From an uncultured cyanobacterium (GTDB lineage Bacteria; Cyanobacteriota; Cyanobacteriia; PCC-6307; Cyanobiaceae), in contig CAIQIA010000016.1 in NCBI GenBank assembly GCA_903871775.1, positions 186,001 through 250,000 of the forward strand: 64,000 nt of DNA, written 5' to 3'. A program made the translations under genes and the position numbers. The stretch's first letter is position 1, and each line of letters opens with the position of its first letter. The notes under the pieces were generated by a model. It ran no database searches. It was not told the origin of the DNA and worked only from the letters and a program-made list of their open reading frames with translations. Of the stretch, positions 59,750-64,000 are shown in pieces.

Positions 59750-60772
59750 ATGAAGGCGTCTTTCGCAGCAGGAAGCTCTCTACTCATCACTGGCGGCACC
59801 GGCAGTTTTGGCAAGGCGTTTGTGCGCACCGTGCTGGAGCGTTATCCAGAAGTAGAGCGGCTTGTGGTGTTCAGCCGTGATGAACTCAAGCAGTGGGAGA
59901 TGCAGCAGATGCTGCCGGCTGCTCGCTATCCCCAGCTGCGCTTCTTTCTGGGTGACGTGCGCGATCGCCGGCGGCTGGAGAGAGCCTTGCATGGGATCGA
60001 TACGGTGGTGCATGCGGCAGCTTTAAAGCAGGTGCCAGCAGCCGAATACAACCCAATGGAGTTCGTCAAAACGAATGTGATCGGTGCCCAGAACCTGATC
60101 GAGGCCTGCCTGGATACCCATGTGAAGCGCTTGGTGGCGCTCTCCACCGACAAGGCGGCTGCACCGGTGAATCTCTATGGCGCCACGAAGCTGTGCTCCG
60201 ATAAACTTTTCATCGCAGCTAACGAATATGCGGGATCGGCTGTAGGGTTTTCAGTTGTGCGCTATGGCAATGTCATGGGGTCCAGGGGTTCGGTGATCCC
60301 CTTTTTTTTGGAGCGAGCGTCAACGGGTGTGTTGCCGATTACGGACCCACGCATGACTCGATTTAACATTTCATTGCAGGAAGGAGTAGAGATGGTGCTT
60401 TGGGCCCTAGCCAATGCCCATGGCGCGGAGTTGTTCGTACCGCGGATCCCGAGCTATCGGATCACCGATGTGGCCGAAGCGATCGGACCAACCTGCGAGA
60501 AGCCAGTGACTGGGATTCGACCTGGCGAAAAGATCCACGAAGAGATGATCACTGCCGCCGACAGCTTCACCACAGTGGATCTGGGTAATTACTATGCAAT
60601 CTTGCCCACCTCTGGTCCATCAGCAGCAAATAGTTACTGCCAACGCACAGGTGCGCAACCGGTTCCGGAAGGGTTTGCCTATAGTTCCGGCAGCAACCCA
60701 GCATTCCTATCGGTATCACAGATCCGAGAGCTGATTGTGGAGCATCTAAATCCCGATTTTCAACCAGTCTGA
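59750..60772 (+). CDS. pseB: UDP-N-acetylglucosamine 4,6-dehydratase (inverting)
   Basis: 340 aa. First step of pseudaminic acid synthesis, giving the 4-keto L-arabino sugar from UDP-GlcNAc. NADP motif LLITGGTGSFGKAF, then VVHAAALKQVP and the catalytic region STDKAAAPVNLYGATK, with PRMTRFNISLQEGVEM further on. The closely related retaining enzymes are longer membrane proteins. GC content is already below the window mean. pseC starts 8 nt later. Confidence 0.93.
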   Translation: MKASFAAGSSLLITGGTGSFGKAFVRTVLERYPEVERLVVFSRDELKQWEMQQMLPAARYPQLRFFLGDVRDRRRLERALHGIDTVVHAAALKQVPAAEYNPMEFVKTNVIGAQNLIEACLDTHVKRLVALSTDKAAAPVNLYGATKLCSDKLFIAANEYAGSAVGFSVVRYGNVMGSRGSVIPFFLERASTGVLPITDPRMTRFNISLQEGVEMVLWALANAHGAELFVPRIPSYRITDVAEAIGPTCEKPVTGIRPGEKIHEEMITAADSFTTVDLGNYYAILPTSGPSAANSYCQRTGAQPVPEGFAYSSGSNPAFLSVSQIRELIVEHLNPDFQPV

Positions 60773-60780
60773 GCAAGCCA

Positions 60781-61989
60781 GTGATCATCCAGGCTGCACC
60801 CTCCAGTCAAGCGGCAACGGCTGACTTCCTCCCCTACGGCCGTCAGACGATCACCGAAGCCGACATCGCCGCGGTGGAAGCGGTGCTGCGCAGCCCCTTT
60901 CTCACCCAAGGCCCAGCAGTTCCAGCCTTTGAGAAGGCGGTGGCCGCAAAAGTGGGAGCCGCTTATGGCGTGGCGACAAATAGCGCCACAAGCGCGCTGC
61001 ACATCGCCTGCCTTGCCTTGGGGCTTGGACCAGGTGATCGGCTCTGGACATCGCCGATCACCTTCGTGGCCTCAGCCAACTGCGGCCGCTACTGCGGCGC
61101 TGCTGTGGATTTTGTGGATATTGAGCCCACCACGGGGCTGATGAGCGTGACGTCGCTCGAGCAGAAGCTACAGCAGGCTGAACGCAGCGGCACCCTGCCG
61201 AAGGTGGTGGTACCAGTACATCTGGCCGGCAGCAGCTGCAACATGGCTGCGATCGGGGCGCTGGCTGAGCGTTATGACTTTGCAGTGCTGGAGGATGCCA
61301 GCCATGCAATCGGCGGCCGCTACCGCGGCGAACCGGTGGGCAACTGCCGCCACAGCGCCATCACGGTGTTCAGCTTTCACCCGGTGAAGATCATCACCAC
61401 TGGAGAGGGAGGGCTGGCCACCACCAACGACCCGCAACTGGCACAGTCGATGGCGGAGCTGCGCAGTCATGGCATTGTGCGCGATCCGGAGCGCTTTGAG
61501 CGGCCAGCAGCGGGACCCTGGGTGTATGAGCAGCAGCAGCTGGGCTTCAATTACCGAATGACTGACCTGCAGGCTGCGTTGGGGCTTAGCCAGCTAGAGC
61601 GGTTGGAGGCAACAGTGGAAGAACGCAACCGGCTGCTGCAGACCTACCGAGAGCTGCTTGCGGAATTGCCAGTGCAATTGCTCGACGTGCCCAAGGACGT
61701 TCTTAGCTCGGTACACTTGGCGGTGATCCGGATGGATCGGGCCAGCCCTACGCAGCACCGGCAGATCTTTGAAAGCTTACGGAATTCAAACATTGGCGTA
61801 CAACTTCACTATAGTCCGGTTCATCTTCATCCCTACTATCGCACGCTAGGATTTATGGAAAAGACTTATCCCGAGGCCGAAATGTACGCAACAAGCGCGC
61901 TCAGCCTGCCACTATTTCCTGGCTTAAAAAAGTCAGAGAGCACCAATGTGGCAGAAACATTACACTTTTTAATCAAAGATTATGCCTAA
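60781..61989 (+). CDS. pseC: PseC-type UDP-4-keto-6-deoxy sugar aminotransferase
   Basis: 402 aa from GTG 60781. A DegT/DnrJ/EryC1/StrS PLP enzyme; the internal aldimine Lys is K203 in SFHPVKIITTGEGG, and LEDASHAIGGRY carries the PLP-binding Asp. The start PYGRQTITEADIAAVEAVL is typical of PseC. It makes UDP-4-amino-4,6-dideoxy-AltNAc from the PseB product. The 3' end overlaps the next gene by 8 nt. Confidence 0.92.
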   Translation: MIIQAAPSSQAATADFLPYGRQTITEADIAAVEAVLRSPFLTQGPAVPAFEKAVAAKVGAAYGVATNSATSALHIACLALGLGPGDRLWTSPITFVASANCGRYCGAAVDFVDIEPTTGLMSVTSLEQKLQQAERSGTLPKVVVPVHLAGSSCNMAAIGALAERYDFAVLEDASHAIGGRYRGEPVGNCRHSAITVFSFHPVKIITTGEGGLATTNDPQLAQSMAELRSHGIVRDPERFERPAAGPWVYEQQQLGFNYRMTDLQAALGLSQLERLEATVEERNRLLQTYRELLAELPVQLLDVPKDVLSSVHLAVIRMDRASPTQHRQIFESLRNSNIGVQLHYSPVHLHPYYRTLGFMEKTYPEAEMYATSALSLPLFPGLKKSESTNVAETLHFLIKDYA

Positions 61990-63091
61990 GGTGTGCCCAA
62001 TGAAGCATCAAGAAGTGCGAAGCATTAGGGTCGGAGATTTCCTGATTGGCGATGGTCATCCTTGTTTCATTACCTATGAAGCAGGTCCTACTCACAACGG
62101 AATAGAATCGGCAATTCGTTTAGTACAGGAAGCTGCCAAGTCGGGAGCTAACGCTATTAAGTTTCAGATTTTTGATGCCGATCGCCTTGTAGCCGACCGA
62201 AAACAACAGTTTCAGTATTCAATCTTGATAGACCGGTCCACTGGGGAAACACAAGAAGTCGCTGAACCCCTTTACAACATTCTACAGCGCCGCTGTCTGA
62301 ATGTAGATCAGTGGAGACGTGTTAAGGCTGAATCAGACTCATACAACCTTGCTTTTTTTGCGACCGTCGGATTTGAGGATGATCTTCGACTTTTGATAGA
62401 TCTAAATTGTCATTCTGTGAAAATAGCGTCAGCTGATGTAGATCATGCCCCTCTCTTGCGTCTAGCGGCAAGATCAGGGCTAAATGTACAACTCGATACT
62501 GGCAACGCTGAGATCGAGGAAATAGCTAGCGCTGTCAAGATTCTCGAGGCGGAAAGATGTCATTCTATCATTATTCATCAATGCCCTAGCGGCTATCCTG
62601 CTCGCCTTCCTAGCATATGCCTGCGAATGATTCAAAGTTTAAGAGATAAGTTCCCGTTCTATCCAATTGCCTACTCTGATCATACTCCTGAAGCCGACAT
62701 GGATATTGCGGCTGTGGCCCTTGGAGCAAATCTAATAGAGAAGACAATCACTCTCGATCGATGCACTCCAAGCGTGGAACACATCTTTTCACTTGAACCA
62801 CCTGAGATGAAGTCCTTTATCCGCCGTTTGCGTGACGTGGAAACGGCCCTAGGGATACCTGACCGCCGCTTGACAGAAGAGCAAAAGGATTCTAGAAGAA
62901 TGATTCGGCGTAGCCCTTATGCAATCAACCCTGCTGGTAAAGGCACTGCATTACACGATTTGGAAGTGGAATACCGGAGACCTGGTACCGGACTTTCACC
63001 CTTGGAGTGGGAAGAGGCTTGTAAATCAGGGATGCGACTTACCAGTGACATCAAAGCAAGAGAGCAACTCAATAAAGAACTTATAGGGTAG
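61982..63091 (+). CDS. NeuB-family nonulosonic acid synthase (PseI-like)
   Basis: 369 aa. TIM barrel (about 25-280) followed by a SAF antifreeze-like domain (about 305-360; RRSPYAINPAGKGTALHDLE). Condenses phosphoenolpyruvate with a 6-deoxy amino hexose. Conserved blocks: YEAGPTHNG, AIKFQIFDADRL, KIASADVDHAPLLRL and PIAYSDHTPEAD. The usual IEKHFTLD is IEKTITLD here, with Thr (T255) at a normal metal-ligand His. Context favours pseudaminic acid, but legionaminic or sialic acid synthase cannot be excluded. GC is far below the left half of the window. Confidence 0.87.
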   Translation: MPKVCPMKHQEVRSIRVGDFLIGDGHPCFITYEAGPTHNGIESAIRLVQEAAKSGANAIKFQIFDADRLVADRKQQFQYSILIDRSTGETQEVAEPLYNILQRRCLNVDQWRRVKAESDSYNLAFFATVGFEDDLRLLIDLNCHSVKIASADVDHAPLLRLAARSGLNVQLDTGNAEIEEIASAVKILEAERCHSIIIHQCPSGYPARLPSICLRMIQSLRDKFPFYPIAYSDHTPEADMDIAAVALGANLIEKTITLDRCTPSVEHIFSLEPPEMKSFIRRLRDVETALGIPDRRLTEEQKDSRRMIRRSPYAINPAGKGTALHDLEVEYRRPGTGLSPLEWEEACKSGMRLTSDIKAREQLNKELIG

Positions 63092-63093
63092 AT

Positions 63094-63822
63094 ATGCCTA
63101 TAAATTATCACAAATCCCAAATCACTAGCCGGTTAGCCTTAATTCCAGCAAGAGGAGGCTCAAAGCGTCTCCCGCGCAAAAACATACTTCCTCTCGGGGG
63201 ACAACCTATGCTCTGCTGGAGCATTAATGCGGCAATAAAAAGTCAACTTTTTGAGCGTATTTGTGTCAGCACGGATGATGCAGAAATCGCACTCATAGCT
63301 AACAACGCTGGAGCCGAGGTTCTTCGTAGACCTACATACCTAGGGACTGACGAATCAACAGTTGCAGATGTCTGCAAATATCACATCCAAGATTTCAAAG
63401 ACAACGGAATAACATTCGACCACTTATATTGCTTGTACCCAACAGCGCCTTTGCGCAATGCCGATGACCTCATTGCAATGGCATCAATTTTCGAGAAAAG
63501 ACATGATGCGATAGCTGTTGTTGCAGTCACCAAGTTTTTGCATTATCCCCACCAAGCACTCCACATTGAAAAGAATGGATCGCTAAAAGCATTCTGGCCT
63601 CAACTAACCAAGCTTAGAGGAAGTGAGTTGCCAACGTTAGTTGCGGGGAATGGGAGCACTTACGCAGTATCAATTGCTCATTTTTTAAAAACACTAGACT
63701 TTACACCTGAGACTGGTCTTTACGCTCATGTGATGAGCCTAATGCGATCGATTGACGTTGATACACCAGATGAATATGAGCTCCTAAAGGCGGCTTTCGC
63801 TGTAATTTCACAAAGTAATTAA
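63094..63822 (+). CDS. CMP-nonulosonic acid cytidylyltransferase (PseF/NeuA family)
   Basis: 242 aa. CTP-binding motif ALIPARGGSKRLPRKNI at the N-terminus, then SINAAIKSQLFERICVSTDD and LYPTAPLRNADD, typical of acylneuraminate cytidylyltransferases. Activates the PseI-like product with CTP. Last clear gene of the island, 2 nt after the synthase. Matching acetyltransferase (PseH) and UDP-sugar hydrolase (PseG) genes are not in the window. Confidence 0.9.
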   Translation: MPINYHKSQITSRLALIPARGGSKRLPRKNILPLGGQPMLCWSINAAIKSQLFERICVSTDDAEIALIANNAGAEVLRRPTYLGTDESTVADVCKYHIQDFKDNGITFDHLYCLYPTAPLRNADDLIAMASIFEKRHDAIAVVAVTKFLHYPHQALHIEKNGSLKAFWPQLTKLRGSELPTLVAGNGSTYAVSIAHFLKTLDFTPETGLYAHVMSLMRSIDVDTPDEYELLKAAFAVISQSN

Positions 63823-63842
63823 CCATAATGATCCGTGCGTTT

Positions 63843-63869
63843 AGGGGTCATAATGACTCATTGACCCCT
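63843..63869. repeat. 8-bp inverted repeat after the CMP-transferase gene
   Basis: AGGGGTCA and TGACCCCT are perfect inverse complements 11 nt apart. A second one, CACCTC to GAGGTG, follows at about 63923-63949. No T tract follows the first, so it is a weak terminator at best; it could also mark the end of a mobile element that continues beyond the window. Confidence 0.5.
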
Positions 63870-63949
63870 TAACTACGACATGATTGCCGGTTTACAAGAT
63901 GAAAGGACCAGCCGTGATGACACACCTCCAGCTGTGATAAACTGAGGTG

Positions 63950-64000
63950 GTGACTAGTAACGCCAGCTATCATCCGAACTTTCTATTTCGCCCAACAGCG
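63950..64000 (+). CDS. Possible start of a further gene, cut by the window edge
   Basis: An open frame from GTG 63950 to the last base encodes 17 residues, VTSNASYHPNFLFRPTA. A purine-rich GAGGTG lies immediately upstream, too close to be ideal. Product unknown; included only so that the edge is not overlooked. Confidence 0.25.
   Translation, partial: MTSNASYHPNFLFRPTA

Follow-up and report, generated by a model that had tools for sequence, protein, structure and literature searches.

A NeuB-family synthase with threonine at a metal-ligand histidine position, conserved as a subfamily in several bacterial groups

The window (the whole stretch of DNA analysed, 64,000 nucleotides) ends in a group of closely packed genes for the synthesis of a nonulosonic acid:

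59750..60772, + strand: pseB, UDP-GlcNAc 4,6-dehydratase (inverting); TIGR03589 503 bits, cut-off 408
60781..61989, + strand: pseC, UDP-4-amino-4,6-dideoxy-AltNAc transaminase; TIGR03588 535 bits, cut-off 424; overlaps the following gene by 8 bases
61982-63091, + strand: Thr-type NeuB-family synthase, the subject of this report; ATG start, intact ORF of 369 aa, reading ...LGANLIEKTITLDRCTPSVEHIFSLEP...
63094..63822, + strand: PseF-like CMP-nonulosonate synthetase; TIGR03584 163 bits, under the cut-off of 206; begins 3 bases past the end of the Thr-type gene

PseB and PseC score above their curated cut-offs, which bears out the pseudaminic-type locus proposed in the earlier note. A gene on the same contig past the window end (L032:8935-10077) is presumably PseG-like, as judged from gene order, and has homologues in 18 of the 28 loci carrying the Thr type, the window genome included; with it, a PseB-PseC-PseG pathway cluster surrounds the Thr-type gene. 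A GNAT-like gene is also found past the window end. A second, canonical NeuB homologue (motif IEKHFTL) was detected 6.4 kb downstream, outside the window (L032:11459-12487); it is 30% identical to the Thr-type protein and lies under both curated cut-offs (NeuB 340 of 400 bits, PseI 263 of 340).

The surface-sugar cluster (window 59750-64000 and L032:5800-15504) is probably an acquired island, because the GC content drops from 69.9% in window 1-59000 to 52.0% in 59750-64000; it reaches 41% in places downstream. ORFs that we take to be phycobiliprotein-like lie at about 50-51 kb of the window and make a picocyanobacterium the probable source of the DNA. The closest Thr-type relative of the window protein belongs to a Rhodobacteraceae MAG (60% identity), and the cluster of another carrier, G1462, has gene content in common with the window cluster, including a 67% identical canonical NeuB.

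We take the metal ligands of N. meningitidis NeuB to be H215 and H236, numbers consistent with the alignment and used below as Nm positions. ORF translation gives the barrel motif of the window protein, usually IEKHFTLD, as IEKTITLD, with Thr at residue 255 (codon 62744-62746). In HMMER alignments Thr255 falls on the His of lERHFT in N. meningitidis NeuB (1xuu), of IEKHF in SpsE (1vli) and PseI (8h2c) and of IEKHY in 6ncs (5 of the 8 matched structure chains were compared), so the earlier claim that a metal-ligand His is replaced was confirmed. In the part of PMC7591256 that treats the metal, the Mn2+ of NeuB is coordinated by two His. The His of VEHIFSLEP, which the earlier note regarded as the retained ligand, did not withstand the alignment: this residue, H267, corresponds to Nm I248, a variable column in canonical enzymes, and was ruled out as a metal ligand on that ground. 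The retained ligand is H234.

The window protein matches the Pfam NeuB domain (PF03102) at 202.7 bits against a gathering score of 22.1, and sequence and structure model agree on a NeuB fold over its whole length. It scores 230.5 bits with the NeuB equivalog TIGR03569 (cut-off 399.65) and 186 bits with the PseI equivalog TIGR03586 (cut-off 340.25); the maximum for TIGR03586 among the Thr-type genes of all carriers is 245 bits (G220). Judged by domain and fold, the Thr type is a member of the NeuB family; judged by its predicted metal site, it is not a standard NeuB enzyme.

Relatives were found by pattern and profile. Used by itself as the query, the window protein found no relative in genome_contigs. 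A DNA pattern for IEKTIT(L/F)D, run over the same collection, gave 76 loci, 13 of which encode NeuB relatives with 38-62% identity to the window protein, from alpha-, gamma- and deltaproteobacteria, Magnetococcales, Saprospiraceae, Kapaibacteria, Verrucomicrobia and Trueperaceae. The profile A1, built from 14 aligned Thr-type members including the window protein (549 bits), was searched in samples from larger groups: 386 genomes of the phylum of the window and 289, 297, 295 and 369 genomes of the classes of G100, G105, G107 and G101. Full-length matches of 484-566 bits were detected in 2, 4, 8, 1 and 2 genomes, respectively, counts that include the seeds (the window genome G000, G100, G105, G107 and G101). 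One partial sequence (G687, 334 bits) and one broken gene (G1706, 349 bits) were added, and all other matches, among those listed, score at most 320 bits, leaving a gap below the full-length members. We define the Thr type by D154, P183, T236 and E247 (Nm numbers) together with more than 480 bits with A1 at full length; the window protein has these residues and this score. Carriers studied are 28 genomes, namely the window genome and 27 more, from several bacterial groups. A phage origin found no support: the pattern DH...GA..EKT matched nothing in viral_contigs, and the 3 phage records found by tblastn have 23-29% identity. Plasmids gave 98 records, with 35% the top identity among the best 20 of the 98.

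The residues that define the Thr type were compared in the 27 readable members (one partial), in 31 canonical homologues (30 from carrier genomes and one from G162) and in 90 further loci, which were read on both strands and in some cases are the same gene (e.g., L014 and L175):

62495..62497, + strand: codon of D172 (Nm S154), at the end of strand 168-172 in the AlphaFold model; D in 27/27 Thr-type members, S in 29/31 canonical homologues and 87/90 further loci
62681..62683, + strand: codon of H234 (Nm H215), the kept metal-ligand His, in YSDHTP; H in 27/27, 31/31 and 90/90
62744..62746, + strand: codon of T255 (Nm H236), where the second metal-ligand His is lost; T in 27/27, H in 31/31 and 89/90
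62777..62779, + strand: codon of E266 (Nm D247); E in 27/27, D in 31/31 and 89/90

The two-His metal site (Nm H215 and H236) is thus incomplete in the Thr type. D154, P183, T236 and E247 are found together in 27 of 27 members; position 183 is variable among canonical rows (T, V, N, I, S, L). Within the subfamily the loss of H236 never occurs without D247E, which puts a longer acid into the neighbouring loop, and S154D, which introduces a new one. We looked for Thr at 236 in ordinary NeuB or PseI proteins, a finding that would speak against the earlier claim, and it occurs in 0 of the 121 other rows, which were picked as NeuB-profile matches in the groups searched and are no census of the family. 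Thr at 236 was selected by the pattern in 13 of the first 14 rows and unselected by it in the 13 later profile rows; S154D, P183 and D247E were never under selection by the search. The sole exception among the 90 further loci, L233, has D154, P236 and E247, which suggests that the acidic changes track the loss of His rather than Thr as such.

Most other active-site positions are retained. Of the 27 Thr-type members, 26 retain E25, K53 and Q55 (the other is the partial sequence, gapped in this region); K129, Y186, S213, H215, E234 and R314 are present in 27/27 and S132 in 25/27, while two members (G110, G111) have S132K and have lost the T of the DTG motif. The window protein keeps E33, K60, Q62, K147, Y205, S232, H234 and E253, and also the C-terminal domain with its Arg (R333, Nm R314). 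A single mutation, a sequencing error and a pseudogene were ruled out, since the change and those that accompany it are common to 27 sequences from 27 genomes and the window gene has an intact frame in close contact with pseC on one side and the pseF-like gene on the other.

The distinct subfamily suspected in the earlier note was recovered by phylogeny: the Thr rows (n = 26) form one clade, apart from PseI, with an SH-aLRT support of 93 when the four trait columns are left out. This clade joins the Pro-carrying relative L233 with support 98 in a tree made by a quick method without bootstrap. The 89 rows of the tree comprise 26 of the 27 Thr rows (the partial G687 was left out), 30 of the 31 canonical rows, two reference sequences, every third extra locus longer than 280 residues, L233 and L161. 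The canonical homologue of the window contig groups with G1462 and L240 (support 99, same quick method) and lies near the Thr clade at weaker support. The listings of open-licence literature that were searched gave no description of this subfamily, and the Thr-type subfamily is real, conserved and, in the literature searched, undescribed.

The AlphaFold model of the window protein has a mean pLDDT of 94.3 and a pTM of 0.83. Its best structural matches are NmNeuB (2wqp), 6ncs, SpsE (1vli) and PseI (8h2c), followed by DAH7P and KDO8P synthases at Z 25-29. In the model D172 ends strand 168-172, H234 lies just after strand 229-233, T255 is within strand 251-256 and E266 is in the loop following that strand, which would place these residues at the barrel strand ends, where the active site is taken to be.

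The Thr gene is often clustered with pseB, pseC, pseG and a canonical pseI. Of the 28 carriers, 20 have a PseI over the curated cut-off, and in 16 of these it is within 10 kb of the Thr gene; among 14 named control genomes, which are well-known species and not a matched sample, it is present in 1. With such a PseI in 20 of 28 carriers, the Thr protein usually adds a second synthase instead of simply taking the place of PseI. The carriers with no PseI over the cut-off are G000, G220, G568, G1462, G101, G102, G103 and G105, several of which are fragmentary; in G105 a PseI match of 279 bits is cut by the contig end. In 20 of 28 carriers the same strand carries a canonical homologue of PseI or NeuB no more than 10 kb away, a count that contig ends limit in several cases. 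In G220, where the cluster is on a 3.78 Mb contig, no PseI above the cut-off was detected, and the surrounding 20 kb encode no NeuB homologue other than the Thr protein, which speaks for an activity of the Thr protein itself; elsewhere this genome encodes a fused-length NeuB homologue (760 aa frame), and a separate PseF-like gene is close to it. G1706 has a broken Thr-type gene (L253:9074-9793) next to an intact PseI. Genes that by eye look flagellin-like are found beside the cluster in L143, L151 and L253.

A PseF-like CMP-sugar synthetase gene lies within 200 bp of the Thr gene in 20 of 28 carriers. The best PseF match per carrier (E 1e-25) exceeds the cut-off only in G830 (211 vs 206 bits), is below it in 26 of 28 (140-193 bits) and is absent in G103; in G104, G106, G220, G568 and G687 the best match is not the Thr-adjacent gene. 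Ten genomes taken as PseI-only gave 4 matches over the cut-off (240-310 bits), 2 weak and 4 none. Absence of the Thr type was a criterion in picking these 10 control genomes and 12 control loci and hence carries no information; they were taken as PseI genomes by tblastn identity of 50-55% to the G100 PseI (10 of 12 loci), not by the curated cut-off. Because of the scores in carriers, the synthetase paired with the Thr gene is off the PseF standard by sequence score, a score that phylogenetic distance could also depress, and the PseF-like genes of carriers may be a matching CMP-synthetase subfamily.

Two further genes, named from their sequences, were observed more often near the Thr gene: presumably a class III aminotransferase-like gene in 8 of 28 Thr loci vs 1 of 12 control loci, and a gene that we take to be Gfo/Idh-like in 5 of 28 vs 0 of 12. 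Regions with such genes include L139:8157-10498, L145:4702-7677 and L246:13675-16034.

Our best explanation, to which we give a probability of about 0.5, is that the Thr type is an active PEP-dependent nonulosonic acid synthase paralogue with a metal site rebuilt from carboxylates, or with a relaxed need for metal, that works in a pseudaminic-type pathway with its own CMP synthetase. A working PEP-dependent condensation is predicted, and the kept PEP and sugar residues and the C-terminal Arg speak for it. PEP would be condensed with a 6-deoxy-altrose-type amino sugar made by PseB, PseC and PseG, the product would be a pseudaminic-type acid, either pseudaminic acid or a variant of it, and the adjacent PseF-like enzyme would activate it. 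H234 and the new carboxylates (E266, perhaps D172) might hold the metal instead of two His; alternatively, the metal requirement may be relaxed, as in the related KDO8P synthases with metal and non-metal forms. The section of PMC3052366 on these enzymes describes a Cys-His-Glu-Asp metal form and an Asn non-metal form, which also differ in the loop bearing the metal-binding Asp.

The earlier note offered two consequences of the substitution. Changed metal handling becomes more plausible, given that S154D and D247E co-vary with the loss of His in the sequences compared, and a different sugar substrate is plausible. In the survey of PMC7371886, as far as its account of the active site goes, the area around PEP and the sugar C1 is conserved in Neu, Leg and Pse enzymes, and the positions around PEP are given as 110, 129, 131, 132, 182 and 184, with 154 not among them. 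The passage of PMC6795526 on NmNeuB residues near the bound inhibitor names H215 and E234, and H236, D247 and S154 are absent from it. Because these residue lists omit position 154, a metal role of D172 is a guess. According to the mutant results given in PMC7591256, the H245A form of Caulobacter NeuB (a PseI) works far below the wild type and has partial function when induced, even at a higher protein level. By residue offsets we placed H245 at Nm H236, and because the mutant worked far less well, losing H236 should be costly unless compensated.

A wider reading is proposed tentatively: the Thr type could represent a widespread undescribed class of nonulosonic acid synthases, with a His and carboxylate site or independent of metal, that makes a new nonulosonic acid together with a matching CMP synthetase in clusters already equipped with the pseudaminic pathway.

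With a PseI over the cut-off no more than 10 kb away in 16 of 28 carriers, a further condensing enzyme seems superfluous. The Thr protein might instead use the nonulosonic acid already made by PseI, for example by epimerizing it or remodelling it through retro-aldol and aldol steps, and pass a modified sugar to the PseF-like synthetase. The pairing with a CMP synthetase in 20 of 28, PseF over its cut-off in only 1 of 28 and the S154D change at the end of a barrel strand would fit such a role, but the retention of the PEP and sugar residues K60, K147, S232, E33 and R333 fits a condensation with PEP, G220 lacks a PseI above the cut-off, and we know of no epimerase or aldol-remodelling chemistry on the NeuB fold; we regard this role as unlikely. 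More doubtful still is that the Thr protein partners PseI without catalysis of its own or as a regulator. Given the domain-swapped dimers of NeuB enzymes, a heterodimer in which the Thr protein covers the active site of the canonical paralogue is conceivable, and the same-strand canonical neighbour in 20 of 28 carriers, the kept C-terminal domain and Arg, and the broken gene of G1706 (perhaps dispensable, with an assembly error possible) agree with it, yet strict conservation of catalytic residues is unusual for a pseudoenzyme and the G220 cluster offers no PseI partner. That the Thr type is an ordinary pseudaminic acid synthase tolerating Thr, with substrate and metal use unchanged, is the least probable: the same pathway genes surround it and Caulobacter H245A kept some function when induced (mutant results of PMC7591256), but it scores 186 of 340 bits, its clade is separate from PseI, all 27 members share changes at further positions, and in 20 of 28 carriers it coexists with a PseI above the cut-off.

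The use of metal in PEP-dependent sugar-acid synthases is a classic evolutionary question, and the active synthase proposed here, a NeuB branch with a rewritten metal site, would, if true, be another test case for it, with 27 natural sequences. Where pseB and pseC lead a cluster to be labelled 'pseudaminic acid', two NeuB-type enzymes and an off-standard CMP synthetase can be present, so that sugars predicted from such clusters, some of them beside flagellin genes, may be wrong or incomplete.

Among known systems, NeuB (TIGR03569; N. meningitidis 1xuu/2wqp) shares with the Thr type the fold (Z 36.6 for 2wqp with model residues 10-369, rmsd 4.8, 344 residues, 25% identity), the first metal His (H215) and the PEP and sugar residues. 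Unlike NeuB, the Thr type has no second metal His and further changed positions, 230 of the 400 bits and a PseB/PseC context. PseI (TIGR03586; C. jejuni 8h2c), which forms pseudaminic acid from 2,4-diacetamido-2,4,6-trideoxy-L-altrose and PEP, is similar in fold (Z 32.8, rmsd 3.4, 334 residues, 28% identity), in the PseB and PseC context, in most catalytic residues and in the C-terminal domain, whereas H236T, D247E, S154D, the score of 186 vs a cut-off of 340, the separate clade and the frequent position beside a PseI set the Thr type apart.

The Pro-type relative L233 (genome G773; L254:9625-10671) resembles the Thr type in D154 and E247, the absent His and its place in the tree, but has Pro at 236 (EKPIT), Cys in place of D214 and 35% identity to the window protein; its cluster holds a DegT-type gene and a gene that, by eye, we take to be SpsF-like. 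The KDO8P and DAH7P synthases of the PEP-using TIM-barrel superfamily share the barrel fold (Z 25-29), whereas their identity is 8-19%, only the barrel part is aligned (to about residue 299) and their substrates are different. In this superfamily, as the relevant part of PMC3052366 describes it, the metal site has been lost or rebuilt through few substitutions, and the parallel that may be drawn with the Thr type is one of analogy, not of membership.
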